Part shown: one piece after another, positions 4,056-44,704 of the stretch
Layout of the letters: each line of letters opens with the position of its first letter
Position numbering within the stretch: position 1 is the first letter of the stretch
DNA from: Aedoeadaptatus nemausensis
Lineage (GTDB): Bacteria; Bacillota; Clostridia; Tissierellales; Peptoniphilaceae
Length of the DNA stretch: 64,000 bases
Assembly (NCBI RefSeq): GCF_903819165.1
Contig: NZ_CAIJCS010000014.1
Location: 124,001-188,000, forward strand
Reading direction: 5' to 3'
Notes under the pieces: model-generated
The model's input: only the letters and a program-made list of their open reading frames with translations
What the model was told of the DNA's origin: nothing
Database searches by the model: none
Position numbers and translations under genes: made by a program

Positions 4056-5431
4056 TCCGCATTGTAAAAGGTACAGATTCGGAGATTCATACATTCTATG
4101 AACTTCTTCGAATCTATTTTCCGTATTATGAAACTTCCGGTGAACTTTTTTTATCTATCGAAACGAAAGAGAATATAAAAAAAGTCGTACTCGTTATCGG
4201 CGACGATCGCTTTGAAAAAGATTTTGTCTTCAGTGATGCATACGTAGCGAAACGCGCTATAGCGTCTTGGATCGTTCGAGATATAGATCACGAATCGAAA
4301 GAAGATTGTTTATGGGGAACTCTGACCGGCACGCGGCCAATAAAATTCCTACAAAAACAACGCAGTCTTTTAGGAGATGAAAAGACGAAAAAGTATTTAA
4401 TCGACGAATACTTGCTTAGTCCTTACATCGCCAATCTCTTAATGGAGATCGCCTTACTGGAAAGCGAAAAGACTGATCATATAAAGGGAAAGGGGTATTC
4501 TCTATATATTCATATTCCTTTTTGTCCGACTCGTTGCGACTATTGTAGCTATCCTACCATTCGAAGCGACAACACGGATGCCGTGGTTCTTTACATGGAA
4601 CATTTATTGAAAGAGCTGGATTTCGTTTTAGATGAGATGGAAGAGGAGCCGACGACGATTTACATCGGCGGAGGAACGCCGACCTCTATTCCGAAGCCTC
4701 AGCTTAAAAGGCTGTTGGATCATTTGTCTCATTTAAATCCTGTGGAGTTTACCCTGGAAGCAGGAAGGCCTGAAACAATCGATGAGGAACTTTTGATTAT
4801 GCTAAGGGATTATCCTATTACGCGAATCAGCATCAACCCTCAAACGATGGTGGATGAAACACTGGAAAAAGTAAAACGTCCCCATAACAAAGAGGACATA
4901 AAACGGGCGTACTACAAGGTGCGTGAAATGACTGATTTTGAAATTAATATGGATCTTATCCTGGGACTTGGAGACGAAGGTATTCCACAAGTAGCCCACA
5001 CTTTCGATGAAGTTATAGACTTAAATCCCGAAAACATAACGGTTCATGTACTCTCCCTTAAAAACGGATCTAAGCTGTTTGAAAACGAAGGGGTCTATAC
5101 AAAAAATATCCGGAAAATGCAGAATTATTCGATGAAACGAATGGCGGAATCCGGCTATCATCCTTACTACCTCTATCGTCAAAAACGTATTATGGGTAAT
5201 GGTTCCAATATCGGCTTTTCCAGAGAAGGCCATGACAATCTCTACAATATGATCATGATGGAAGAGATCCATTCGGTTATCGGCGTAGGTATGTCCTCCA
5301 CGACAAAACTCGTAGATGAAACGGGTAAGACCGTGAGCAAATTTTCAAATTTCAGAAATATGAGAGATTATACCGAGCGATTCGGTGAAATTATCGATAA
5401 AAAGAAGAAGCATTTGAGAGAGGTTTTATGA
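4052..5431 (+). CDS. hemZ: HemZ-type radical SAM coproporphyrinogen dehydrogenase-like protein
   Basis: A 459-residue radical SAM protein of the HemN/HemZ family. The iron-sulfur motif is CPTRCDYC with cysteines at 158, 162 and 165, followed by IYIGGGTPTS near 204 and the HemN-like segment MDLILGLGDEG near 300. The 150-residue N-terminal extension before the radical SAM domain is typical of HemZ rather than HemN or HemW. HemZ is annotated as an oxygen-independent coproporphyrinogen III dehydrogenase, but its activity in anaerobes without a full haem pathway is uncertain, and no other haem gene is in the window. ATGA overlaps join it to both neighbours' frames. Confidence 0.85.
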   Translation: MIRIVKGTDSEIHTFYELLRIYFPYYETSGELFLSIETKENIKKVVLVIGDDRFEKDFVFSDAYVAKRAIASWIVRDIDHESKEDCLWGTLTGTRPIKFLQKQRSLLGDEKTKKYLIDEYLLSPYIANLLMEIALLESEKTDHIKGKGYSLYIHIPFCPTRCDYCSYPTIRSDNTDAVVLYMEHLLKELDFVLDEMEEEPTTIYIGGGTPTSIPKPQLKRLLDHLSHLNPVEFTLEAGRPETIDEELLIMLRDYPITRISINPQTMVDETLEKVKRPHNKEDIKRAYYKVREMTDFEINMDLILGLGDEGIPQVAHTFDEVIDLNPENITVHVLSLKNGSKLFENEGVYTKNIRKMQNYSMKRMAESGYHPYYLYRQKRIMGNGSNIGFSREGHDNLYNMIMMEEIHSVIGVGMSSTTKLVDETGKTVSKFSNFRNMRDYTERFGEIIDKKKKHLREVL

Positions 5432-6960
5432 AACTGAATACCTTACTTGAAAGAGTAGAAATAAAAAATAGAATCAGACAAATTGACGGAGATTTAAATA
5501 TTTCCAATATTTCAAACGATTCGAGAGAGATCGGCGAAGGGGATATATTTGTCGCCATGAAGGGCGTACTGGTGGACGGTCACGATTATATTGAAGAAGC
5601 CAAGAAAAGAGGAGCGGCACTTGTGGTTTGCGATCACGAGGTCGAGGTGGATATTCCTCAAGTAATCGTCGAGAATCCTCGCAAAGCGTTGGCCGATCTC
5701 GCTTGTACCTTTTACGGCGATCCGTCGAAGGAGATGAAGGTTTATGGCGTAACGGCTACCAACGGTAAAACCTCCACCGCTTATATGCTTCGCGATATTT
5801 TCAAAGCGGCGGGATACGAAGTAGGCGTTATCGGCACGGTAGAGGTGCAATATAAAGATGTCTCCATTCCCTCGATCTTAACGACCCCCGAATCTATTCA
5901 TCTCCAAAAACATTTACGGAACATGGCCGACAGCGGCGTTGAGGTCGTTGTAATGGAAGTTTCTTCCTCGGCTCAAGAGCTCTACCGTAGCAGGGGTATC
6001 GATTACGATATCGTAAGCTTTAATAATATTTCCGTAGAACACTTAGAACAACACGGCACCTTTGAAAATTATTTCCATTTTAAGAGCCGATTGATTCGTC
6101 ATGCCCAGAAGGAAACGGCGGTTATTTTAAACATCGACGCCCAACTTATCGACGATTTGAAAGATAAGACGGAAGGTCAAGTTTTTACGGCAGGCGTAGA
6201 AAAAGATGCATTGATCGGCGTTTCAAATATCGATATTTCCAGCGGTTTTCCGAAATTTACCTACACAGTGAAAGAAGATCGCAAAGCCGGTAAATGGTCT
6301 CTAAAAAAATTGGAGCTTCCCATTGACCTTCAGGTCACGGGATTCCATACAGTTTTAAATGCTATGATGGCCATCAGTTTCGGTTTATTGGCAGGGGTGA
6401 ACCCTTCCACCATACAAAAGGCCTTATACAATTTCAGAGGAGTCGAAAGACGCTTCGAATTGATCTATAATAAAGAGTATATGATCATCGACGATCATTA
6501 TGCCAATGTTAAAAATATTGCCGTTACCTTAGAAACACTTTGTCGCATGGATTATAAGAATCTTCATTTACTTTATGCGATTCGAGGAGGAAGAGGGGCG
6601 GAACTCAATCGCGAGAATGCGGAAGAAACAGTAAAGTGGATGCCGAAATTGCCTCTTAAAGATTTCATTGCGACGAAATCTGTCGAGGTTGTATCTTCGA
6701 AGGATGAGGTAACGGATAAAGAGCTGGAGGCTTTTCTCAAAGAAATGGAAAAAGCGGGGCATACCGTACCCGTTATCGATTCTTTAAAGGAAGCCATCGA
6801 TACCATTCTTCCCAAGGTAGAGCCGGGAGATGTTTTACTCCTTGCCGGTTGCCAGGGAATGGATCATGCTGCAAAATATATTTGGCAGATGTTAGCCGAC
6901 GCTTCTTCGGGAGAAGAGAGAGCGGAATGGCTTAAAAAGATAGACGAAAGAATTTGTTAG
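5428..6960 (+). CDS. MurE-like Mur ligase family protein, substrate unknown
   Basis: A 510-residue ATP-dependent ligase with the three-domain Mur layout. The N-terminal UDP-sugar binding domain shows NDSREIGEGDIF (about 30-41) and DGHDYI. The central ATPase has TATNGKTST (109-117), TTPES (152-156), EVSSSAQ (177-183; MurE has EVSSHA), VEHLEQHG (203-210; usually DHLDYHG) and a lysine at 219 where the carbamylated lysine is expected. The C-terminal domain differs: IDDHYANVKN (354-363) replaces DDYAHTPD, and I cannot find DNPR/DDPR, the motif that selects the added diamino acid in MurE. AGCQGMDH replaces AGKGHE. It may be a divergent MurE, or a paralogue adding another amino acid or acting outside peptidoglycan. 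It overlaps hemZ by ATGA and precedes aspS. Confidence 0.75.
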   Translation: MKLNTLLERVEIKNRIRQIDGDLNISNISNDSREIGEGDIFVAMKGVLVDGHDYIEEAKKRGAALVVCDHEVEVDIPQVIVENPRKALADLACTFYGDPSKEMKVYGVTATNGKTSTAYMLRDIFKAAGYEVGVIGTVEVQYKDVSIPSILTTPESIHLQKHLRNMADSGVEVVVMEVSSSAQELYRSRGIDYDIVSFNNISVEHLEQHGTFENYFHFKSRLIRHAQKETAVILNIDAQLIDDLKDKTEGQVFTAGVEKDALIGVSNIDISSGFPKFTYTVKEDRKAGKWSLKKLELPIDLQVTGFHTVLNAMMAISFGLLAGVNPSTIQKALYNFRGVERRFELIYNKEYMIIDDHYANVKNIAVTLETLCRMDYKNLHLLYAIRGGRGAELNRENAEETVKWMPKLPLKDFIATKSVEVVSSKDEVTDKELEAFLKEMEKAGHTVPVIDSLKEAIDTILPKVEPGDVLLLAGCQGMDHAAKYIWQMLADASSGEERAEWLKKIDERIC

Positions 6961-6968
6961 GAGGAATC

Positions 6969-8747
6969 ATGGGAGAATCACTGGGAACATTAAAGCGCAC
7001 CCATTTGTGCGGTACTTTAAACGAAGAACATATTGGAGAAGCAGTTACGGTTATGGGATGGGTACAAAAATCCAGGAACCTTGGTGCTCTTGTCTTCACA
7101 GATGTTCGGGACTATACGGGTATCGTCCAGGTCGTCTTCGATAGCGAAGTGGACGAATCCGTTTTTGATAAAGCAACGTCTTTACGCTCCGAGTTCGTCG
7201 TGGCCGTAGAAGGGGATGTAAGAGCTCGCAGTTCGGTAAATGAAAATATTCCTACAGGACACATTGAGATACTGGCGCGTGAATTGAAAATTTTAAACGA
7301 ATCTGAAGTACCTCCCATTTACGTGAAAGACGACGATGATGTAAGCGACGATCTTCGTTTAAAATATCGCACACTGGATTTGCGTAAACCTCACAGTCAA
7401 CACGTTTTAAGGACGCGTTCTCGGGTATATAAACTAACGAGAGACTTCTTCCACGATGAAGGCTTCGTCGAAGTGGAGACGCCGATGCTCAATAAACCGA
7501 CGCCTGAAGGAGCGAGAGACTATCTGGTGCCCAGCCGCATTCACGACGGTTCGTTCTATGCTCTTCCTCAATCTCCTCAACTGATGAAGCAACTTCTAAT
7601 GGTATCGGGCTTTGATCGCTATATTCAAATCGCCCGTTGCTTTAGAGATGAGGACTTACGCTTTAATCGTCAACCGGAATTTACACAAATCGATATGGAG
7701 CTCAGCTTCGTCGAGGCAGACGATGTAATGGAAATCAACGAGCGTTATTTGAAAAAGCTCTTTAAAGAAGTGATCGATGTGGATCTCAAAACACCTTTTG
7801 ATCGCATGACCTATCGCGAAGCCATGGATCGCTACGGCGTGGATAAGCCGGATGTACGCTTCGGTATGGAACTGAAGAATGTTTCCGACATCGTCGAAAA
7901 CTGCGATTTTAAAGTATTTTCCGGCGCCGTTTCTTCCGGTGGCAGTGTACGCGCCATCGTGGTAAAAGGCGGTGAAGAATTTTATTCCCGCAAAAAGATC
8001 GACAAGTTGGAAGCTTTTGTGAAAGACTTTAAAGCTAAGGGATTAGCTTGGGCAAAGGTAAAAGAAGACGAAATCCAATCTCCTATTCTAAAATTTGTCG
8101 GCGACGATATTATGAACAGTATTGTCGAACGGGTTGATGCGGAAACGGGCGATTTGATTTTATTTGTTGCGGATAAAAATGATATAGTGTTTGCCGCACT
8201 GGGTAATCTAAGAAATCACATTGCCGAAGAAATGGATATAATTCCAAAAGACGTTATTGCGCCTCTTTGGATCGTCGAATTCCCCTTATTCGAATACGAT
8301 GAAGAAGAAGAGCGCTATGTGGCAAAACACCACCCCTTTACGGCTCCCATGGATGAAGATATCGATAAGATCGAATCGGATCCTGCAAATTGTCGTGCGA
8401 AGGCCTACGACATCGTTATGAACGGCGATGAAATGGGTGGCGGCTCCATTCGTATTCATGACGGACAGGTTCAAAAGAAGATGTTTAAGGCCTTAGGCTT
8501 CACGGAAGAAGAAGCTCAAGATAAGTTCGGTTTCCTATTGGAAGCCTTCAAATACGGCGCACCGCCACATGGTGGTTTAGCCTACGGTTTAGACCGATTA
8601 ATAATGTTATTAACCGGTGAAAAGAATATGCGCCACGTCATTGCATTCCCGAAAACTCAATCGGCGAGCGACCTCTTAACCGGGGCACCTGTCGAACTTT
8701 CGGAAAAACAACTGGAAGAGGTGCATATTCGCGTAATAGAGGAGTGA
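6969..8747 (+). CDS. aspS: Aspartyl-tRNA synthetase
   Basis: A 592-residue bacterial-type class II aspartyl-tRNA synthetase. Visible are the N-terminal anticodon-binding OB fold (VMGWVQKSRNLGALVF), motif 2 (CFRDEDLRFNRQPEF), an inserted GAD domain in the middle, and motif 3 (GGLAYGLDRLIMLL) followed by FPKTQSASDLLTGAP. The OB-fold position that is often His in non-discriminating enzymes is Leu here, suggesting charging of tRNA-Asp only; this is an inference. I chose the ATG at 6969 because AGGAGGA lies just before it; an in-frame TTG at 6954 has no such site. hisS, the usual neighbour in this cluster, is absent. Confidence 0.97.
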   Translation: MGESLGTLKRTHLCGTLNEEHIGEAVTVMGWVQKSRNLGALVFTDVRDYTGIVQVVFDSEVDESVFDKATSLRSEFVVAVEGDVRARSSVNENIPTGHIEILARELKILNESEVPPIYVKDDDDVSDDLRLKYRTLDLRKPHSQHVLRTRSRVYKLTRDFFHDEGFVEVETPMLNKPTPEGARDYLVPSRIHDGSFYALPQSPQLMKQLLMVSGFDRYIQIARCFRDEDLRFNRQPEFTQIDMELSFVEADDVMEINERYLKKLFKEVIDVDLKTPFDRMTYREAMDRYGVDKPDVRFGMELKNVSDIVENCDFKVFSGAVSSGGSVRAIVVKGGEEFYSRKKIDKLEAFVKDFKAKGLAWAKVKEDEIQSPILKFVGDDIMNSIVERVDAETGDLILFVADKNDIVFAALGNLRNHIAEEMDIIPKDVIAPLWIVEFPLFEYDEEEERYVAKHHPFTAPMDEDIDKIESDPANCRAKAYDIVMNGDEMGGGSIRIHDGQVQKKMFKALGFTEEEAQDKFGFLLEAFKYGAPPHGGLAYGLDRLIMLLTGEKNMRHVIAFPKTQSASDLLTGAPVELSEKQLEEVHIRVIEE

Positions 8748-9227: not shown

Positions 9228-9710
9228 TCAACGGTAGCGATCCAATCTGGGACGTCCTTTATATTCGGAGCGTTTTCGGAAAGCTCGAAGAGATTTGGAG
9301 AATAGGCCCGATGCCACAATTCCCAAAGAAAGGGCGATAGCGACTGAAAAAGTTTTGACTGCTTCTCGAAGAAACATATCCATATTGTCGCTGATTAAAT
9401 AACTCATAGTATAGTACATTCCGCCTCCGGGAACCAAAGTAATGAGTGGAGGCATTATAAAAATAGTGGCCGGCATTTTATAAAGTCTTGAAAAAAATTC
9501 ACCTAAAATACCCATTAAAAAAGCGGCCAGGAAGGCGGCAAAAAAAGCATTGCCGTCTAAATCGAGAATCTTAAGGTATAGAAGGTAAGATATCCCTCCG
9601 CTGAAACAGCTCGATAGGAGAGATCGCTTCGGCGCTTCCACGGGTATGGCATAGCCTATGGTGGCGCAAAACGAAACGAAAAACATTATAATAGCTTTTT
9701 GAATCGTCAT
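9228..9710 (-). CDS. ThrE-type exporter, small membrane subunit (ThrE_2/DUF3815)
   Basis: A 160-residue integral membrane protein with about five hydrophobic segments and a basic C-terminal tail. The segment FIMPPLITLVPGGGMYY matches the C-terminal half of threonine/serine exporters (YjjB-like). Together with the gene just upstream, which supplies the other half, it would form a two-subunit exporter of threonine, serine or a similar small acid; in E. coli the related YjjPB pair exports succinate. The genes are one base apart. The substrate is not predictable. Confidence 0.85.
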   Translation of the reverse strand: MTIQKAIIMFFVSFCATIGYAIPVEAPKRSLLSSCFSGGISYLLYLKILDLDGNAFFAAFLAAFLMGILGEFFSRLYKMPATIFIMPPLITLVPGGGMYYTMSYLISDNMDMFLREAVKTFSVAIALSLGIVASGLFSKSLRAFRKRSEYKGRPRLDRYR

Positions 9711-9711
9711 A

Positions 9712-10500
9712 TCAACCTCCTATAATCTTTTCTAAATTTAAAATAAATCCGACGCCGAGAGCAATAGCGAATGCGACGAAGATACCTTTCGTGATCCCGA
9801 TCAGTCCGGAAACATAATCGCCGCTGATAATATCCCTTAGAGAATTTGTTACGATCATCCCCGGAACCAGGGGCATAATAGCTCCGATAATGATCATATC
9901 CATGTGAAGGATCGGCATGGCCTTAACGCCTATAAGTGCTAAAATTGAAACAACCATGGTGCCTAAAAAAGCTTCGGGAAAGAAGGAGACATTATGCTTC
10001 GCCGTAAGCCGCATGCAGTAATTAAGGATGAAACCTACAAAAAAAGTGTAGGCGAAATCATGCCATGTGCCTCCAAACATAATGGCGAAAGAGGCGCTAC
10101 AAAGGCCGGTAAAAAACATGGTCACGGGGAGAGAGCGCTTGGTAGCATGGGATATAGACATCAACTTGTTGCGTGATTCATAGAGTGAAATCTCTCCCGA
10201 AACGAAACGTCGTGAAAAAGTATTTAACTCGTCGATCTGATTTAAATTGACTCCTGAATTTTCAATATCCCTGAACATGGTAATAGATTCTTCATCATAT
10301 TCGGCGGAAACAAAAAGTGCGGAACTAAGGGCGAAGACGTCGACCTCCGTTATATTTTCCATAGACAAGATCATGCGCTCGATGGTGTCTTCGGCGCGAT
10401 ATATTTCGGCTCCATTTTTAATGAGCATTTGGCCGGTTGTCATGGCAATATTAATTAAACTTTTAGCCTCTTCTAAGCTATTTATCTCTTGTCGGCCCAA
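9712..10500 (-). CDS. ThrE-type exporter, large subunit (ThrE/DUF1212)
   Basis: A 262-residue protein with a cytoplasmic N-terminal domain of about 115 residues followed by five predicted membrane helices. The family signature is visible in GAIMPLVPGMIVTNSLRDI followed by GDYVSG. It pairs with the small subunit immediately downstream, resembling YjjP/YjjB. The start is TTG at 10500: an AAGGAGG sequence lies at proper spacing upstream and no ATG fits better. The gene begins 23 bases inside the 3' end of the GIY-YIG gene, so translation is probably coupled. Confidence 0.88.
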   Translation of the reverse strand: MGRQEINSLEEAKSLINIAMTTGQMLIKNGAEIYRAEDTIERMILSMENITEVDVFALSSALFVSAEYDEESITMFRDIENSGVNLNQIDELNTFSRRFVSGEISLYESRNKLMSISHATKRSLPVTMFFTGLCSASFAIMFGGTWHDFAYTFFVGFILNYCMRLTAKHNVSFFPEAFLGTMVVSILALIGVKAMPILHMDMIIIGAIMPLVPGMIVTNSLRDIISGDYVSGLIGITKGIFVAFAIALGVGFILNLEKIIGG

Positions 10501-10759
10501 GGCTATTTCCTCCTTTCCGGATTAGCTTCATTTTCTTTTCTCTCGTTAATTTTTTTATGGCGTGTTCTCGTTTTAAGCCCGTGGATCTGTCCGAAACAGA
10601 CTCCAAGTATACCATGGATACGGGGAGTCGACTTCGCGTATATTTTGAGGCCGTTCCCTTGTTGTGCTGTTGAAGTCTTCGTTCAGGATCGGTGGTGTAG
10701 CCGGTGTAGAAACTTTTATCACCACATTCTAAAATATAAACGTAGTGTTTTACGGCCAT
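10478..10759 (-). CDS. GIY-YIG nuclease domain protein (UPF0213/YhbQ-like)
   Basis: A 93-residue single-domain protein that is nearly all GIY-YIG fold: YVYILECGDKSFYTGYT at the N-terminus, RRLQQHNKG and the helix KREHAIKKL. Family members are small stand-alone proteins, some with weak nuclease activity on branched or nicked DNA, and most lack a known role. It overlaps recX by 10 bases and the exporter gene by 23 bases. Proximity to recX hints at DNA metabolism, but the exporter neighbour argues against reading much into this. Confidence 0.85.
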   Translation of the reverse strand: MAVKHYVYILECGDKSFYTGYTTDPERRLQQHNKGTASKYTRSRLPVSMVYLESVSDRSTGLKREHAIKKLTREKKMKLIRKGGNSLGPTRDK

Positions 10760-11358
10760 CGATTGAGCACCACCTTAATGGCGGGGTATTGAAAACCGCG
10801 AGAGAGTAAAAAGCGAATGATTTTAGTTTTGTCTTTCGACAAACCATGACCGCGTACATACTTTTTTCCGACGATCTTGTCAATCATTTCTACTTCATCT
10901 TCGTGAGTAAATTTTTCTAAAGCCATGGCGATAAATCTTTCGTCGACGCCTTTTTGCTTTAAAAGATAGCGGATTTTAATAGGGCCGTAGCCGTTAAGGT
11001 TCCGCTTGTCTCGAGCGAAGAGTTCGGCAAATTCCTCGTCGTTAAGAAAGCCATATTCCTTCAGGTAGTCGACGGCGCCTGCAATGGCATCTTCGCCGAT
11101 ACCTTCCCGGATAAGCAAATCTTCTATTTCCCATGTGGTCTTACGATTACGAAGTTTTTTAAGGGCGAAATCGATGGCGATTTGGCGCTCGCTATCTTTT
11201 CGGATTTCGAGTATATCATTTTCCGTCAGCTCTTTTCCCTTATAGAGATTGTGCCTGACAAAAACCGACTCCGGTAAACTTAAAGGGTTCTCCTGATCCA
11301 GCTCGACGATAAATAGATTATTTGATTTTTGAATGCGTTTTATTTCCATAGTCATCAT
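10750..11358 (-). CDS. recX: RecX family regulator of RecA
   Basis: A 202-residue RecX, which binds RecA filaments and limits (or in some Firmicutes helps disassemble) them. The tandem three-helix repeats are recognisable: YLKEYGFLNDEEFAELFARD near residue 93 and NGYGPIKIRYLLKQKGV near 123. The gene lies 26 kb from recA, as in many Firmicutes. Starts are ambiguous: ATG codons at 11358, 11355 and 11349 all lack a Shine-Dalgarno. A TGTTAAAAT extended -10 ends six bases before the first ATG, so the transcript may be leaderless. Confidence 0.88.
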   Translation of the reverse strand: MMTMEIKRIQKSNNLFIVELDQENPLSLPESVFVRHNLYKGKELTENDILEIRKDSERQIAIDFALKKLRNRKTTWEIEDLLIREGIGEDAIAGAVDYLKEYGFLNDEEFAELFARDKRNLNGYGPIKIRYLLKQKGVDERFIAMALEKFTHEDEVEMIDKIVGKKYVRGHGLSKDKTKIIRFLLSRGFQYPAIKVVLNRWP

Positions 11359-30793: not shown

Positions 30794-30822
30794 TTGACAT
30801 CAAACACATGTTCGAATACAAT
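30794..30822 (+). promoter_or_regulatory. Promoter of the YneA-like gene
   Basis: TTGACA (30794-30799), a 17-base spacer and TACAAT (30817-30822): near-consensus. A LexA-type box sits inside the spacer, so the gene should be silent until LexA is cleaved. Confidence 0.8.
30802..30813. promoter_or_regulatory. LexA-type box within the YneA-like promoter
   Basis: AAACACATGTTC, which reads GAACATGTGTTT on the other strand, a full match to the clostridial-type consensus GAAC-N4-GTTT. It lies between -35 and -10. Confidence 0.75.
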
Positions 30823-30824
30823 AA

Positions 30825-30848
30825 GAACAAATGATCGAACAAGCGTTC
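30825..30848. promoter_or_regulatory. Tandem LexA-type boxes downstream of the YneA-like -10
   Basis: GAACAAATGATC (30825-30836, one mismatch) and GAACAAGCGTTC (30837-30848, perfect GAAC-N4-GTTC) lie directly end to end around the expected transcription start. Confidence 0.7.
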
Positions 30849-30870
30849 CAGATACTATTGGAGGGTTTCT

Positions 30871-32874: not shown

Positions 32875-34416
32875 TTATTTTGCGTACTCGATGGCGCGTG
32901 TTTCGCGGATAACATTGACTTTTATTTGACCGGGGAAATCCAGTTGTGATTCGATTTCCTGAGCGATCTTTCGAGCCGTCGTTACCATATGCGCTTCATC
33001 AACTTCGCCGGGTTTTACGATAATGCGTAATTCTCTGCCGGCTTGTACGGCATAGGATTTTTCGATGCCGTCAAATTCTTCGGCAATAGCCTCTAATTGT
33101 TGTAAGCGTTTAATATAGGTTTCGATAGTTTCCCTACGAGCGCCCGGCCGCGCCGCACTGATTGCATCGGCAGCTTGAACAAGTATAGCCTCCAGATTGG
33201 CAAACTCTACATCGCCATGGTGGGCTTCGATACCGTTTATAACAGCTTCAGGCTCTTTGTAGCGTCTCGCAAGGTCGACACCCAACTCGACGTGGGGACC
33301 TTCCACTTCATGATCGATGGATTTTCCTAAATCGTGTAGCAGACCTGCACGTCTTGCAAGTTTCGAGTCGACCCCTACTTCTTCAGCCAAATAGCCTGCG
33401 ATCTTCGATACCTCGATAGAATGTCTCAAGCAATTTTGACCGAAACTCGTACGGAATTTTAAACGTCCTAGGTATTTTACCAGTTCCGGATGCAGACCAT
33501 GGACTCCCGCTTCAAAGGCGGCCTCTTCACCGCTTTCCTTGATCACTTCATCCACTTCTTGTCGCGCTTTTTCTACCGTATCTTCAATACGCGTCGGATG
33601 TATACGACCGTCCAGGACGAGCTTTTCAAGGGCCAATCGCGCGATTTCTCGACGAATGGGGTTAAAGGACGAAACTACTACTGCTTCCGGAGTATCGTCG
33701 ATAATGAGGTCGACGCCGGTTAAAGCTTCGATTGCGCGAATATTGCGACCTTCTCTTCCGATAATGCGTCCCTTCATTTCTTCATTAGGAAGGGCAACGA
33801 CGGAAACCGTGGCTTCTGCTACTTCATCGGCAGCGAGACGTTGAATGGAATGCACGATAATGTCTTGTGCAATCTTCTTACTATCGTCTTTAATTTGGCG
33901 CTCAAATTCGCGAATCCTTAGAGCCGATTCCTGGGTGAGTTCGCTATCCAGCTGATTTAGAAGAATTTGCTTAGCTTCTTCTTTCGACAATCCGGAAATT
34001 CTCTGAATCTCTTCAGATTTCTTTTCGATAAGTGCATCCACAGAATCTTCCTTTTCCTGAATTCGAGTTTGTTGTTCAAGAATTTGCGATTCCTTCTTTT
34101 CAAGTGTCGCACTTTTGGATTGAAGAAGATCTTCTTTTGAAATCAAACGATCTTCAAAACGCTGAAGTTCCGACTTTCGAGCATCATTTTCTTGTTGTAC
34201 CGTGTCTCTTAGCTTATGAATTTCTTCTTTCGCTTGGAATAAAATATCCCGTTTATTGTTTTCTGCTTCTCGTTCCGCATCAATGATGATATTTTTGGCT
34301 AATTCTTCCGCATGCTTCAGTTTACCTTCTGCTATATTACGACGAATAAAATAACCAATTGCTACTCCGAGGATTCCAATAAACAATGCCACAATAATTG
34401 AAATGTATGCTGGCAA
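32875..34416 (-). CDS. rny: Ribonuclease Y
   Basis: A 513-residue membrane-anchored endoribonuclease that starts decay of many mRNAs in Firmicutes. An N-terminal helix (about 4-24) is followed by a long coiled coil (about 30-190), a KH domain ([16 protein letters not shown]) and an HD domain with GLLHDLGKS near residue 361. The start is taken as TTG 34416: AGGAGG lies eight bases upstream. An upstream in-frame GTG at 34425 falls inside that Shine-Dalgarno. The gene has its own likely promoter at 34471-34500. Confidence 0.96.
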
Positions 34417-34470
34417 ATGGAACACCTCCTATTCAATTTTCAAGTTTCAAATGGTGTAAACCACGTATTC

Positions 34471-34503: not shown

Positions 34504-35172
34504 TTAGCGGAGGCTTTCGTCTTCATCATTAATTACAGGACTGACGGTGCTTTCACCGTTTCGGATCTCTACTCGAAAACTCTTATCGCAAATATTGGTA
34601 AGATAATCGTCGTGTGTCACCATGATGATTTGCCGGTGGAAAAGACGGGAACATTCTTTTAAAAACTCCCCCATATTAAAAATATAATCATTACTGATGT
34701 GCTTGCCCGGTTCGTCTAAAAAAAGAGGTCCTTCGATTTTAGGACGATGGTTTTCAAGAAAAGCAATGCGAAGTGCGAGGGAAACGATATCTACAACCCC
34801 TCCTCCCCTGCTCTGCTCAGGTTTTGTTTTGACGCTATAATCGCCGTAATCGGATTCCACAAAGAATTCAGCAATAGGAAGACCCCTCTTTTCCGATAGA
34901 TCAACCGTAAATTTCGAGCTGTTTTGCATAATATAGGCTATGGACTGCGTTACGATATCCTCGATTTGATGCTTAGCTTGATTTCTGGAATAATCAGCCG
35001 CCTTTTGCAGTAAGATTACGACTCCATTGAGTAGCTTTTCTTTTGATTCTACCGCCTCTAAAGCAGCATGTTGTTTCTTCAGATTCTCGAGTATAAGATC
35101 TCGCCGAGCCTCCTCTTGATCCACGGTTTTAGAAAAAATTTGAAGACGATCTTCAAGTTCCTGAATCCTCAT
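34504..35172 (-). CDS. Rad50/SbcC-like ATPase, C-terminal half
   Basis: A 222-residue protein resembling only the second ATPase lobe of Rad50/SbcC. A coiled coil (about 1-75) leads into a globular part with a degenerate ABC signature region SRGGGVVDIVSLALRIAFL (121-139), Walker B PLFLDEP (149-155) and the H-loop VTHD (185-188). There is no Walker A; that is supplied by the gene two upstream (35409-36848). The start ATG overlaps the stop of the 79-residue gene (ATGA) and has its own GAGG site, so this is a designed gene rather than a frameshift product. Confidence 0.8.
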   Translation of the reverse strand: MRIQELEDRLQIFSKTVDQEEARRDLILENLKKQHAALEAVESKEKLLNGVVILLQKAADYSRNQAKHQIEDIVTQSIAYIMQNSSKFTVDLSEKRGLPIAEFFVESDYGDYSVKTKPEQSRGGGVVDIVSLALRIAFLENHRPKIEGPLFLDEPGKHISNDYIFNMGEFLKECSRLFHRQIIMVTHDDYLTNICDKSFRVEIRNGESTVSPVINDEDESLR

Positions 35173-35408
35173 GAACGTTCCTCAGGAAGAAGGCGTTCCG
35201 CTTCGCTCAACAGGTCTTGTATTTCTCTTTCAATTTTCTCTATTTCCGTTTCTAAAGAACCGGGATCTAAACCGAGGGCTTTTATTTTTTCATTGAGCTC
35301 TTTTTCTTCTTTTTCAAGTTCTTCCATTCGCCATTCTGCCCGTTTACGCGTGTCTTTTGCACGTTCGTAGCGACGATTTAAATCATTGATTTGTTGCTCC
35401 AGATCCAT
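35169..35408 (-). CDS. Small coiled-coil protein between the two ATPase halves
   Basis: A 79-residue, highly charged protein predicted to be two helices (about 1-45 and 53-75) separated by LGLDPGS, so it may form a helical hairpin. No family recognised. It lies between genes for the N- and C-terminal halves of a Rad50-like ATPase, with zero bases before it (TAA then ATG, GGAGG upstream) and a four-base overlap after it. It may replace the returning coiled-coil segment that follows the zinc hook in one-piece Rad50/SbcC. Confidence 0.7.
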   Translation of the reverse strand: MDLEQQINDLNRRYERAKDTRKRAEWRMEELEKEEKELNEKIKALGLDPGSLETEIEKIEREIQDLLSEAERLLPEERS

Positions 35409-36848
35409 TTAATCCTCCAAACTTTTCTTAATCGCTGACAAGTGATCTTTATCGATGGGTTGTCTGCAAAGAGGACATGTGCCGGCTCCGGAAAGAGCGG
35501 TCATATAAGCCTCCATAGCGTCCTCTGTTTGTTTCTGAGAGTTTGTTAAAGTTCGTTTGTGATTCTCTTTTTCTGCATATAGGTTTCTCCAAGAAGTAAC
35601 AAGCGATTGAATTATCTGAGTCTTTTCTCTATTCTCTTCAGCCTTTATCAATATATCTCCCGCTTTGTCAACGGTTCTAAATTGTTCTAAAAAAATATGG
35701 CCACGTTGAAGTCGCTCTTGAAGTTCTCTGTACTGGAGAAAAAGATCATTATATTGCTTGTATGTAGCAAAGTATGAAACGAGCTCTTCTCCACGAAAGT
35801 CATCGATAGAAGATAATCGACTCAACATCTCTCTATTTATGTTTAAATCATCTTGAATTCTTTTATAAGAGGCATAGAGCGGTTTTAATTCCGCCAGATT
35901 TTCATAGTTTAACTTTAGAGAATAGAAAAGTTCATCCTGTTTTTTTCCATCTCCCATGGTGGCCATTATATTTCTAGTACCTTCTTGCTCTCGACGGTTT
36001 CGAATATAACTCTCCATTAATAAACGATCTCTGGAATAGCGTCTGGCTTTGGCTTCCAGTAAGAGGAGATGATCTTTCATTTCATCGAGATGGGCGTATT
36101 CATTCAGTACATCTATGATTTTAGAGCGCTCTTCATTTATATATCGACGCTTGCTTAAAAAGCTTTTGGCATCATTTGAACGCTTTTCCAGATCCTTCAG
36201 TTTTTGCAAATATACTGCTAATCTGTCGCGTAGCTCCAACATTTCATCTAAGGATTGGAAAGCCTCGAGAGATTTTTCGGTCTCCTCTATTTCCGATTCC
36301 ATCAAATCTTTTTGCGTAGACAACTGTTTTTTATCCCTAAGGGTATTGCGCATGGTTTCATCTAAAACGTCTACTCCAACCATACGTCCGATAGCCTGGG
36401 CTTTATAGGCATCGGTCTCTTGCAGCAAAAAAGGCCCTTCCAACTGATCTGAAAAATTTAGGGGAAGAGATTTTTTATCATCCAACATGACCTTATAGAT
36501 GCCTGTTGTCTCCCGTATTTCTTGAGGTACATGGGTACCAAATCCTTCAAATACAATTTCCTCTTCGTCGGGTTTTCTTAAAATATATTGATTTTTAGAT
36601 TTACTCCTGAGCCTTGTGACCTCCACACGATCTTGGAAACGGACAGTAACCGCTACTTCGCTCTCCCCTTCCCGTACGAAGTCTACTCCGGAAGGTTCGT
36701 TAAATAGATTCCAGCGAAGAGCTCGCATAATAGCAGTTTTTCCGCTGTCGGAAGGTCCGACGATAACATTGACGCCGCGAGATAAATCGAGTTCTGTATA
36801 GTTGTGGGATTGAAAATTCTTCAGAATTATTTTTTCAATATACTTCAC
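35409..36848 (-). CDS. Rad50/SbcC-like ATPase, N-terminal half with zinc-hook motif
   Basis: A 479-residue protein with the first ATPase lobe of Rad50/SbcC: KNFQSHNYTELDL and Walker A GPSDSGKT (31-38), then a Q-loop region (FSDQLEGPFLLQ near 130) and a long coiled coil (about 165-455). It ends in CPLC (458-461), a zinc-hook type CxxC, only 18 residues before the stop. Walker B and signature are absent and are found in the gene two downstream. The start is GTG, overlapping the nuclease stop as GTGA. Confidence 0.83.
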   Translation of the reverse strand: MKYIEKIILKNFQSHNYTELDLSRGVNVIVGPSDSGKTAIMRALRWNLFNEPSGVDFVREGESEVAVTVRFQDRVEVTRLRSKSKNQYILRKPDEEEIVFEGFGTHVPQEIRETTGIYKVMLDDKKSLPLNFSDQLEGPFLLQETDAYKAQAIGRMVGVDVLDETMRNTLRDKKQLSTQKDLMESEIEETEKSLEAFQSLDEMLELRDRLAVYLQKLKDLEKRSNDAKSFLSKRRYINEERSKIIDVLNEYAHLDEMKDHLLLLEAKARRYSRDRLLMESYIRNRREQEGTRNIMATMGDGKKQDELFYSLKLNYENLAELKPLYASYKRIQDDLNINREMLSRLSSIDDFRGEELVSYFATYKQYNDLFLQYRELQERLQRGHIFLEQFRTVDKAGDILIKAEENREKTQIIQSLVTSWRNLYAEKENHKRTLTNSQKQTEDAMEAYMTALSGAGTCPLCRQPIDKDHLSAIKKSLED

Positions 36849-37825
36849 AGATTACTCCTTCGCTCCTCTACATCGGCGATGCGCCTTAAAGCTTCATCTT
36901 TTATTGTTTTATCTAGTTTTTCATTTTCGGCAATATCGACGATAACATCTAAAAAATTAATATGATCGTATCTACCTGCACCCTCGATAGATTCTTTAAA
37001 TTCCGCTAATTCTCTGCGCTTAAATTTATGCATCTCGATCTCTGTGCGGTCCAGTACTTCGTCACCGGGCTGTGCGGACTTCAAATAGTATTCTTCGATT
37101 GTGCAACTATTCTTAACGACTTCGATCAAAAGTATTTTAGGTCGACGCTTCAGCTCAGTAAGAGAATTCGAAATACGAACCGTAGCGCCCGGATTGGCGA
37201 AGATCTTTCCTTCTATTTCAGTAATGGGAATGCCGTCGTGCAAATGGCCACTCAGTGTTAAATCCGCCTTAGTTTCCAAAATATCTGAAATCGTCGTATG
37301 GGAGAACATAGCCTTCGTGCTGTCGGTCATTAAAAACCCGTGCACAAGATGAATAGCAAAATCAGCTCTAGGATCTTTCTCTTTCACAATATAAAGATCG
37401 CGATTTTCCTCTCGATCCAAACCGTAAATATAAGGTGCACCGCTTAATTGAACCGTGGTCTCTCCATCTTCTAAAAGAATAGCTTCGTTATTTAAAATAT
37501 GAATGATTCCCAAAGTATCCAAAAGCCCCATCATGGTTCGCGGTAAGGTAATGGGATTGTGGCCATAAATATCGTGATTTCCACTAATAGCGTAGATAGG
37601 TTTCGTGAATTTCTGTAAGACCGGAATAACCTCGTTCATAACCGAAATAGAGACATCGGGACGATCGAAGAGATCGCCTCCATGAAGAATATAATCGGCA
37701 TTCCAAGAAATGGAAAGCTCCTGTATCTCTAGGATTTTATTTAGTACCGTTTCAAAAAAATTATCTGTTCGCGATTTCGGATTGGTACCCCGAACATGAC
37801 TGTCGGTGAAGTATATAAATCTCAA
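36845..37825 (-). CDS. Mre11/SbcD-like metallophosphoesterase nuclease
   Basis: A 326-residue calcineurin-type phosphoesterase with the complete Mre11 metal site: FTDSH (D8, H10), GGDLFD (D51), SGNHD (82-85), VHG (H162) and GHLHDG (H194, H196). A C-terminal region of about 100 residues could bind the ATPase coiled coil, as in SbcD. It directly follows recA (three bases) and precedes the split Rad50-like genes, so it probably works in double-strand break processing. Phage-type gp47 proteins are an alternative relation. Confidence 0.88.
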   Translation of the reverse strand: MRFIYFTDSHVRGTNPKSRTDNFFETVLNKILEIQELSISWNADYILHGGDLFDRPDVSISVMNEVIPVLQKFTKPIYAISGNHDIYGHNPITLPRTMMGLLDTLGIIHILNNEAILLEDGETTVQLSGAPYIYGLDREENRDLYIVKEKDPRADFAIHLVHGFLMTDSTKAMFSHTTISDILETKADLTLSGHLHDGIPITEIEGKIFANPGATVRISNSLTELKRRPKILLIEVVKNSCTIEEYYLKSAQPGDEVLDRTEIEMHKFKRRELAEFKESIEGAGRYDHINFLDVIVDIAENEKLDKTIKDEALRRIADVEERRSNL

Positions 37826-37828
37826 GGA

Positions 37829-38866
37829 TTATTCCTCCTCAAAGGGCTGATTATTCTCCTCCACTGTATCATTTTTATTATCCATATGATAATGCTCGCG
37901 AACTTTATGATCGATTTCTTCTAATAGATCGGGATTTTCAAGTAAGAAATTCTTGGAGTTTTCCCGGCCTTGACCTAGCTTTGCCTCGCCATAACTGAAC
38001 CAGGATCCCGCCTTTTCTACGATCCCGGCTTCGACGGCAGCATCCAGCGTACTCCCCACTTTCGATATGCCGGTTCCGTACATAATGTCAAATTCAGCTT
38101 TTTTAAAAGGAGGTGCCACTTTATTTTTTACAACTTTAACGCGAACGCGATTACCGATTATGTCGTCTCCCTTTTTAATGCTGTCGATACGACGGATATC
38201 CATACGTACAGAGGTAAAGAACTTAAGAGCGCGACCTCCCGTAGTTGTTTCCGGATTGCCGAACATAACGCCGATTTTTTCGCGAAGTTGGTTAATAAAA
38301 ATAACAGAGGCTTTGGATTTGCTGATGGCTCCCGTTAATTTCCTTAATCCTTGGCTCATAAGGCGCGCTTGGAGGCCCATATGACTGTCTCCCATTTCCC
38401 CTTCGATCTCCGCTTTCGGTACGAGGGCGGCTACGGAGTCCACAACGATTAAATCCACTGCATTACTGCGCACCAAGCTTTCGGTAATTTCCAGCGCCTG
38501 TTCTCCCGTATCCGGTTGAGAAATAATGAGGTTTTCTATATCCACACCTAAGTTTTTGCTATAGGTCGGATCCAGAGCGTGTTCGGCGTCGATAAAAGCT
38601 GCAGTTCCCCCCAGCTTTTGTGCTTCGGCAATCATATGAAGTGCCAGCGTCGTCTTACCGGAAGATTCAGGGCCGTAAATTTCTAAAATTCTACCGCGCG
38701 GAATACCTCCTATTCCCAGGGCGATGTCTAGGCTTAGAGAGCCGGTGGGAATGGATTCTAAATTTAAATTGGCATTTTCGCCGAGACGCATAATGGCGCC
38801 TTTACCATATTCTTTCTCGATTTTTGCAATAGCGTCGTCTAATGCTCTTCTTTTACTTTCGTCCAT
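37829..38866 (-). CDS. recA: RecA recombinase
   Basis: A 345-residue RecA. It forms filaments on single-stranded DNA, drives strand exchange and stimulates LexA self-cleavage. Walker A is GPESSGKT (65-72); other motifs are [20 protein letters not shown] and [16 protein letters not shown]. No promoter or LexA box lies immediately upstream: the gene starts inside the 3' end of cinA with GGAGAG before the ATG, so it seems to depend on the operon beginning at ftsK or on an internal promoter I could not see. Confidence 0.98.
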
Positions 38867-44194: not shown

Positions 44195-44211
44195 AATAGT
44201 CTCCTTTAATC

Positions 44212-44223
44212 AAATATATGTTC
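44212..44223. promoter_or_regulatory. LexA-type box at the ftsK promoter
   Basis: On the minus strand GAACATATATTT. With its left flank, GCGAACATATATTT, it is identical over 14 bases to the box in the lexA promoter (30758-30771). It lies 6-18 bases downstream of the ftsK -10, covering the expected transcription start. Confidence 0.6.
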
Positions 44224-44229
44224 GCCTCT

Positions 44230-44238
44230 ATTATACCA
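44230..44238 (-). promoter_or_regulatory. ftsK operon promoter (extended -10)
   Basis: On the minus strand TGGTATAAT, a perfect -10 with extended TG, 36 bases before the ftsK start. The -35 at 17 bases (CTTTCA) is weak. Confidence 0.6.
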
Positions 44239-44260
44239 TAATAATTCCATTCTGAAAGTG

Positions 44261-44704
44261 TTAGCGAACACCTGTATGGCCGAATCCTCCTTCGCCTCGA
44301 ACAGTTTTTGACAGCTCGCTTTGTTCTTCGACCTCTTCCCATTGGGCGGTCTCATAGCGCATAAAAACGATTTGTGCGATGCGATCCCCATCTTCTATGG
44401 TTACATTTTCCTTAGACAGATTGATTAATAAAACATTTAACTCGCCACGGTAATCGCTGTCGATAGTACCGATACCATTGACCGTAGTAAGGCCTTTTTT
44501 TAATGAGAGACCGCTTCTCGCGCGCACCTGTCCCTCTACCCCTTCCGGAATTTCAAAGAACAAACCGGTGGGCACCATAACGCGATCTAAGGGTTCGAGA
44601 ATCATGGGCTCTTTAAGATTTGCCTGAAGATCCATGCCACATGCACCGCTGGTTTTATATGCGGGAAGGGGGTGATTGGATTGATTGAAAACTTTTACTT
44701 TCAT
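44261..44704 (-). CDS. dut: dUTP diphosphatase
   Basis: A 147-residue trimeric dUTPase, which hydrolyses dUTP to dUMP to keep uracil out of DNA. All five motifs are visible: ACGMDLQA, RSGLSLKKGL, NGIGTIDSDYRGE (with the catalytic Asp), GDRIAQIVF and the C-terminal RGEGGFGHTG. GGAGG lies before the ATG, only a few bases past the pnp terminator. Its own 3' end shows no terminator before the ftsK promoter. Confidence 0.96.
   Translation of the reverse strand: MKVKVFNQSNHPLPAYKTSGACGMDLQANLKEPMILEPLDRVMVPTGLFFEIPEGVEGQVRARSGLSLKKGLTTVNGIGTIDSDYRGELNVLLINLSKENVTIEDGDRIAQIVFMRYETAQWEEVEEQSELSKTVRGEGGFGHTGVR

Follow-up and report, generated by a model that had tools for sequence, protein, structure and literature searches.

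A putative naturally split Mre11-Rad50 complex encoded beside recA in Bacillota and in phages

Introduction

Rad50 is treated as one long chain, with the coil and the hook central to its mechanism. A 64,000-nucleotide stretch of the genome of Aedoeadaptatus nemausensis (Bacillota; Clostridia; Tissierellales; Peptoniphilaceae), positions 124,001 to 188,000 of contig NZ_CAIJCS010000014.1 and referred to here as the window, contains at 34504–37825 a set of four genes that encode an Mre11/SbcD-type nuclease and, on three further chains, the parts of a Rad50-like protein (referred to as the N chain, the small protein and the C chain). Very probably, the set encodes an Mre11-Rad50 complex that is split by nature and takes the place of SbcCD. 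The evidence consists of four conserved parts, a native split, linkage to recA in the family, a distribution complementary to that of SbcC and a predicted assembled head.

The set resembles SbcCD/Mre11-Rad50 in the metal site of its Mre11-type nuclease, in its predicted two-lobed ATP-binding cassette (ABC) head, in its zinc-hook CxxC motif and, within the family, in its recA linkage. It differs in that its Rad50 is made up of three chains and in that the hook, in the window, lies 18 residues from a chain end and not at the tip of a loop; it also has a long arm of repeats of about 47 residues, a short return and a signature serine that is not conserved. Walker A and Q-loop, Walker B and H-loop, and CxxC are all present, and strict membership of the Rad50/SbcC class fails on chain continuity, on the signature (the LSGG serine) and on the curated cut-offs. 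The nuclease likewise has the metal-site motifs of the Mre11/SbcD class and scores below its curated cut-off. By its anatomy, the set should work like Mre11-Rad50.

Several other systems are related to some degree. RecN, RecF and SMC proteins have the ABC head fold in common with the set, and we know of none that has a zinc hook together with an Mre11 partner. The gp46/gp47 proteins of T4 are likewise a phage Rad50-Mre11 pair, which serves recombination and replication; gp46 holds both ATPase lobes on one protein (PMC5105663). LmuB of the Lamassu defence systems is described (PMC10586767) as a single chain with a Rad50-like head, a short arm, often a zinc hook, varied effectors and generally a Walker B Glu to Gln substitution; in the set, by contrast, the lobes lie on two chains, the corresponding glutamate (E154) is invariant and the partner is of the Mre11 type. 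No description of naturally separate Rad50/SbcC lobes was found in the literature searched, coverage of which was partial, so that this is weak evidence of absence.

The four proteins and their conserved motifs

All features of the set lie on the minus strand of the window. The N chain (35409..36848, 479 residues, start GTG) consists of the Walker A half of the head, a long arm and a zinc hook near its end. It matches Pfam AAA_23 (E 5e-20) and, in sequence, chain A of the solved Rad50 head, 1f2t_A (E 3e-5). The Walker A motif, GPSDSGKT, occupies residues 31–38 (36735..36758), and among 26 aligned homologues G31, G36 and K37 are invariant and Q135, which was judged by eye to be the Q-loop residue, is at least 90% conserved. 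The hook motif CPLC (residues 458–461, 35466..35477) ends 18 residues ahead of the end of the chain; C458, P459 and C461 are at least 90% conserved, and residues 439–478 match the Pfam Rad50_zn_hook model at E 4e-4, under the Pfam cut-off (20.7 vs 24.3 bits).

The C chain (34504..35172, 222 residues) carries a short return coil followed by the signature, Walker B and H-loop half. No Pfam model matches it at its cut-off, and the best NCBIfam match places residues 3–216 on positions 665–872, the C-terminal part, of a Rad50 model (E 7e-8). Sequence comparison with the second chain of the solved head, 1f2t_B, gives a weak match (E 0.004), and Pfam SMC_N is matched at E 1e-3 by 14 of 26 C chains, with no such match for the C chain of the window itself. 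The Walker B acidic pair D153-E154 (34711..34716) and the H-loop histidine H187 (34612..34614) are invariant in 26 aligned homologues. The canonical Rad50 signature is an LSGG motif; as aligned by eye, the C chain has in this region a GGG core (residues 123–125, 34798..34806) in which G123 is invariant and G124 and G125 are at least 90% conserved.

The small protein (35169..35408, 79 residues) is encoded between the N and C chains, and across 25 aligned homologues P49 is invariant and I56 at least 90% conserved. In PHROGs the three chains fall into three distinct families whose lengths fit theirs: phrog_16465 for the N chain (491 positions, E 5e-64, labelled exonuclease), phrog_18563 for the small protein (77 positions, E 5e-6, labelled unknown) and phrog_15167 for the C chain (211 positions, E 1.5e-60, labelled ATPase).

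The nuclease (36845..37825, 326 residues, start TTG) matches Pfam Metallophos (E 4e-13) and the Mre11 structure 1ii7_A (E 6e-6), and contains the metal-site motifs of the Mre11/SbcD phosphoesterase core. In an alignment of 24 homologues, D8, H10, D51, H84, H162 and H196 are invariant, with N83 and H194 conserved to at least 90%. It stays under the curated cut-offs, with 26.3 vs 77.65 bits for sbcd and 23–27 vs 500–600 bits for the archaeal Mre11 models.

An initial annotation of this DNA, made from its letters, had assigned a complete Mre11 metal site to the nuclease, Walker A and a terminal CPLC hook but no Walker B to the N chain, and a 79-residue coiled-coil gene to the space between the two lobes. 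These assignments are confirmed, and profile searches of the proteins, which it had proposed, gave the AAA_23, Rad50 C-terminal and Metallophos matches above. It had also given the C chain a signature region, Walker B and H-loop; the last two stand on their invariant residues, and the signature turns out to be atypical.

Conservation of the split in cellular genomes

Among 130 genomes of the family, C-chain matches at E 1e-3 occur in 105, of which the 68 at E <=1e-20 were counted and the 37 weaker ones, largely in frames of other ABC proteins, were dropped; one of the 68 (G087) has in-frame stops. Twenty loci from 20 further genera were drawn from the 68, all chosen by C-chain match, and the order Mre11-N-small-C is found in 20 of 20. 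The irregularities are an N chain in two open reading frames (ORFs) in one locus (L046) and an Mre11 gene cut by a contig end in another (L056). Of the 20 loci, 19 have recA in position and 14 have rny inside the stretch that was fetched. The loci of the seven relatives found with the window (see the organisation of the locus) also have all four parts and recA.

The C chain extends well beyond the family. In the order sample it was found at E <=1e-40 in 107 of 199 genomes, as counted from the places listed, always in a frame of 94–249 residues, one of which has internal stops. Of forty order and phylum loci, picked by C-chain match and deliberately including odd ones, 34 encode each of the four parts in an ORF of its own and 12 have recA in the stretch; the six outside the 34 are three loci incomplete at contig ends (L147, L152 and L155) and three fusions (L149, L150 and L151). 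Wherever both lobes were found they are on separate genes, except in the three fused genomes, with some loci cut by contig ends.

The break had been read in the initial annotation as native, with a survey of relatives for one fused protein or a sequence error as the means of refuting it. The survey did not do so: the split is kept in 20 of 20 genera and in 34 of 40 wider loci, and none of 80 viral contigs has an N-C fusion.

Distribution against SbcC

SbcC-like proteins were defined as matches to TIGR00618 at E <=1e-10 in the family or E <=1e-20 in the phylum, none of which is over the cut-off of the model. They are present in 45 of the 130 family genomes, mostly as single frames of about 900–1050 residues. 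In three genomes of a sister genus (G009, G036 and G037), the SbcC-like matches lie in shorter, broken or separate frames.

The set and SbcC-like proteins rarely coincide. Both are found in 3 of the 130 family genomes, vs about 23.5 expected (Fisher p 2.5e-15 at genome level), with neither in 20; by genus (39 genera), 24 have the set, 10 an SbcC-like match and 2 both (p 0.003). The phylum sample comprises 398 genomes, the same in both searches as listed, with a set cut of E <=1e-15 that dropped 38 weaker matches; 66 have the set, 166 an SbcC-like match and 2 both, vs 27.5 expected (p 7.7e-15, again at genome level), and 168 have neither. By family, 27 have the set, 68 an SbcC-like match and 4 both. 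The source genome of the window has no SbcC-like match. On this pattern of sequence matches, the set seems to replace SbcC in these bacteria.

Predicted structure of the head

Models were made by reading through stops, so that the chains are tethered, and the two models are of different proteins, such that their Z-scores are not a strict comparison of a head with and without its second half. The model of the N chain and small protein from the window has a mean predicted local distance difference test (pLDDT) score of 79 and a predicted template modelling (pTM) score of 0.38. Its N lobe matches SMC/Rad50 heads, the best being the cohesin head 6qpw_A (Z 12.5), with Rad50 1f2u_C at Z 11.6 (root-mean-square deviation 3.3, 130 residues). 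In this model the arm runs through six helices, one after another, up to the hook, and the small protein is a helical hairpin.

The model of the N chain, small protein and C chain of a phage locus (L171) has a mean pLDDT of 66.5 and a pTM of 0.45; the stretch between the small protein and C is of very low confidence, and in the C part 18 of 22 ten-residue blocks have a pLDDT of at least 83. Its joined head superposes on single-chain Rad50 4ncj_A with Z 25.7 and a deviation of 3.4 Å over 293 of 311 residues, spanning model residues 2–997 and thus both halves. The question raised at the outset, whether predicted structures bring the two ATPase halves together, is answered in that this read-through model joins N and C into a head of the SMC/Rad50 type. 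The solved Rad50 head 1f2t, which is itself two chains matching N and, weakly, C, shows by analogy that a two-chain head would be physically possible.

The hook and the arm

The arm of the N chain (residues 165–455, 35484..36356) is built from repeats of about 47 residues. In a profile autocorrelation calculated from a read-through set of N, small and C sequences, the strongest signal of the N arm is at lag 47, 3.9 standard deviations above the mean of lags 5–149, followed by lags 139, 7 and 92 in second, third and fourth place. The distance from the lobe end to the hook, measured in N chains with both landmarks as set by loose patterns, falls for 112 of 134 distinct chains into three 12-residue bins, 270–281 (17 chains), 318–329 (60) and 366–377 (35), with a smaller group at 210–221 (6) and three values far outside this range. 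From these sequences the arm therefore appears to lengthen in whole steps of some 47 residues. Of the two geometries considered, a zigzag bundle and a kinked rod, such whole-unit changes would mildly disfavour a simple zigzag, because one added unit would move the hook to the opposite end.

The models give the arm moderate to low confidence; the hook lies near the end of the N chain, and the helices of the return are supplied by the other two chains. Taken together, the C-chain return coil and the small protein would be too short to pair with the whole N arm. The arms had been described initially as asymmetric coils, and the long outgoing and short returning parts are real; the long part, however, consists of the 47-residue repeats and is not a plain coil.

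Phages, plasmids and fusions

A search of viral contigs with the single C chain found no relative. The same search with a C-chain alignment gave 165 matches, of which 80, several of them close relatives of each other, were kept and examined. The C chain is present in 79 (73 distinct), the N chain in 76 (74 distinct), Mre11 in 78 and the small protein, by profile, in 55, and 73 of the 76 viral N chains have CxxC within the last 70 residues. Twenty-four contigs have C and no small-protein profile match, and in 12 of these a heptad-like ORF of 80–99 residues, recognised by eye, lies just ahead of C. In several divergent viral contigs, L223 and L243 among them, the small coiled-coil gene was not found upstream next to C.

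The genes are variously arranged in phages. In Bacillus phage vB_BboS-125 (L009) the N chain is gp32, the small protein gp34 and the C chain gp35, with an AP2-domain gene in between; at 9256–10236, between gp36 and gp37, this genome also has an unannotated ORF for a 326-residue Mre11. An uncultured 485-kb phage (L012) has a RecA-like gene close to the set and, at 10124–11257 between the small coiled-coil gene and the C chain, an ORF that resembles a sliding clamp by eye. The C chain also occurs in nine plasmid records. In Bacillus velezensis plasmid p3 the N (E 6e-104), small (E 5e-21), C (E 3e-72) and Mre11 (E 6e-96) profiles match four products of a region annotated as AAA ATPase, hypothetical, chromosome partitioning protein ParA, hypothetical and metallophosphoesterase.

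Fusions involve the nuclease. Mre11 and N are joined in six viral contigs, in which C is still a separate gene. One of these (L189, 218,948 bases) has the size of Bacillus phage 0305phi8-36 and is presumably that phage. At 4675–8711 it encodes a 769-residue Mre11-N chain and, downstream, a separate 236-residue C gene, with the small protein and one further gene between them. In 2011 an Mre11/Rad50 fusion protein was noted as lacking one P-loop/ATPase segment (Yoshida et al., PMC3175470); the Mre11-N chain of L189 is probably this fusion, and the separate gene its missing half. The parts of PMC3175470 that were read make no mention of a separate C gene or of the small protein, and a word search of the text of a 2007 comparative paper (PMC2147016), which puts the phage at 218 kb, found none of SbcC, SbcD, Rad50, Mre11 and gp46.

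The sole N-C fusions seen are single Mre11-N-C chains of 684–700 residues in three genomes of one Bacillota family (L149 4764–6818, L150 6152–8254 and L151 6083–8170). In these the N lobe runs into the C lobe without the long arm and without the CxxC hook, and the chain is, to judge from its sequence, a natural minimal Mre11-Rad50.

A model for the split complex

In the proposed complex, the Walker A half of the head, the arm leading outward and the zinc hook would all belong to the N chain; the C chain would bring a short return coil together with the half that holds the signature, Walker B and H-loop, such that N and C form one Rad50-like ABC head and two heads sandwich ATP. The small protein, a predicted helical hairpin, would most likely complete the return coil or cap the arm near the hook. 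The nuclease is expected to dock at the base of the coil. DNA ends would be sensed and cut in the manner of SbcCD, the likely substrates being free ends, hairpins and blocked ends that then pass to repair by RecA, and the recA linkage points to a role in recombination; the phage version would serve recombination and replication.

A more tentative idea, which we regard as possible at best, is that the complex acts as a clamp whose ring is opened by chain exchange. The hook would sit on a stackable arm of 47-residue units tuned in whole units, the short return would be supplied by two other chains, and DNA would be loaded or released when the C chain or the small protein comes off, not through opening of the hook or heads. 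The single Mre11-N-C chains, which have neither coil nor hook, suggest that the core reaction may need neither.

Several points weigh against a split Mre11-Rad50 that stands in for SbcCD. The genome-level p-values treat related genomes as independent and are hence too small. TIGR00618 also matches control genomes, archaea included (11 of 14 in one search and 9 of 14 in the other), and because of this, and because no match is over its cut-off, a match means an SbcC/Rad50-like protein and not a proven SbcC. Neither the set nor SbcC is indispensable, as 20 of 130 and 168 of 398 genomes are without both. No NCBIfam Rad50/SbcC model is reached at its cut-off (best 63.3 vs 700 bits). The signature region of the C chain is atypical in that the position of the Rad50 signature serine is not a conserved serine and the preceding positions vary; the variable serine suggests, at the level of sequence, that the ATP contact may differ in detail. 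In the phage model, the SMC head 5xei scores like Rad50 (Z 25.9, 406 residues, 5.5 Å), and because SMC heads score alike the fold identifies an ABC head of the SMC/Rad50 kind without choosing Rad50. Finally, the read-through tether could favour contact between N and C, with the inter-domain error not given.

Alternative explanations

The alternative that survives best, though unlikely, is that the set is a phage recombination module that was recruited beside recA and whose role is limited to mobile-element biology. A FastTree phylogeny was made from 148 C chains, of which 83 are viral. All 37 chains that have recA or rny close by fall in one group of 39, and this group sits inside mostly viral diversity, in a tree that is midpoint-rooted, has several weak nodes and samples mostly viral sequences. 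The set may have been recruited from a phage. Origin and present role are, however, separate questions, and the stable site after recA across the family, together with the few SbcC-like matches beside the set, argues for a housekeeping role now.

It is quite improbable that the set is a defence module akin to Lamassu, or another ABC-based anti-phage system, instead of a repair complex. Against the LmuB defence model the N chain gives E 7e-17 and the C chain E 2e-6, and the N chain has matches to 41 defence models at E 1e-3, but the LmuB and GajA matches lie mainly in the ABC head and the LmuB models cover in one chain both lobes, which are here on two. In addition, the partner nuclease is of the Mre11 type and its metal site is conserved; the genes come after recA in the family and also occur in viral contigs; and E154 is invariant where LmuB, according to a review (PMC10586767), generally has the Glu to Gln change.

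We consider it very improbable that N and C form no common head and that each works with another partner, their genes being derived from a broken Rad50. Contact between N and C has no experimental precedent known to us, and in Microbacterium phage Magritte the lobes are encoded in the distant genes 155 and 2. Against this, each half is without the motifs that the other carries, N and C are adjacent in host loci and close in most viral loci, single Mre11-N-C chains exist and the model joins the halves.

That the split is an artefact of a frameshift, a sequencing error or a decaying gene in this strain has practically no chance of being right: the SbcC-like proteins of sister genera are mostly single frames of about 915–1049 residues (shorter or broken in G009, G036 and G037) and broken copies of the set do occur in relatives (G087 and L046), but the three-way split is the same in the 20 further genera, in 34 of the 40 loci from order and phylum and in viral contigs, with separate starts and three PHROG families of fitting lengths, and sequencing error or a pseudogene was accordingly rejected on the survey of relatives.

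Implications

A naturally split Mre11-Rad50 would mean a Rad50 cut at the hook and in the return coil and kept so across many Bacillota and phages. With arms that vary in whole 47-residue units, and with one family in which coil and hook are gone and the rest is joined, such proteins would be natural variants with which the roles of the coil, the hook and an unbroken chain in sensing DNA ends could be studied. The annotated records examined label the parts without linking them ('exonuclease', 'ATPase', 'AAA family ATPase', 'chromosome partitioning protein ParA' or hypothetical). Because the parts are labelled apart, and because 64 of 398 Bacillota genomes have the set and no SbcC-like match, the view of how Mre11-Rad50 is distributed among bacteria may have to be revised.

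Organisation of the locus

The gene order on the minus strand of the window is cinA, recA, the Mre11-type nuclease, the N chain, the 79-residue coiled-coil protein, the C chain and rny, where cinA, recA and rny (RNase Y) are names that we take from recognition of the sequences by eye, rny without a family search. recA (37829..38866, minus strand) lies directly upstream of the nuclease gene in the same direction with a 3-base gap, and the presumed rny (32875..34425, minus strand) follows the C chain and is a neighbour in relatives too. The nuclease and N-chain genes overlap by GTGA, the N-chain stop TAA abuts the small-protein ATG, and the small-protein and C-chain genes overlap by ATGA; the ORFs, their minus-strand coordinates and these junctions are as first annotated. 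The same source had given each gene its own start and Shine-Dalgarno sequence, and the four separate starts are indeed preceded by purine-rich stretches, as seen by eye. Seven relatives with the locus were found, the nearest being named Aedoeadaptatus, with C chains up to 88% identical.

In the source genome, AddA has ten matches below the cut-off in three frames. Promoter-like sites in the window number 10 vs 9.8 expected, and an SOS-box scan of the window gave 29 matches vs 33.5 expected, not significant overall. Two clusters of LexA-box-like sequences are present in the window, one at 30801–30849 between lexA and a LysM gene, and the other at 44211–44294, just upstream of an ftsK-like gene that heads the gene run to recA.

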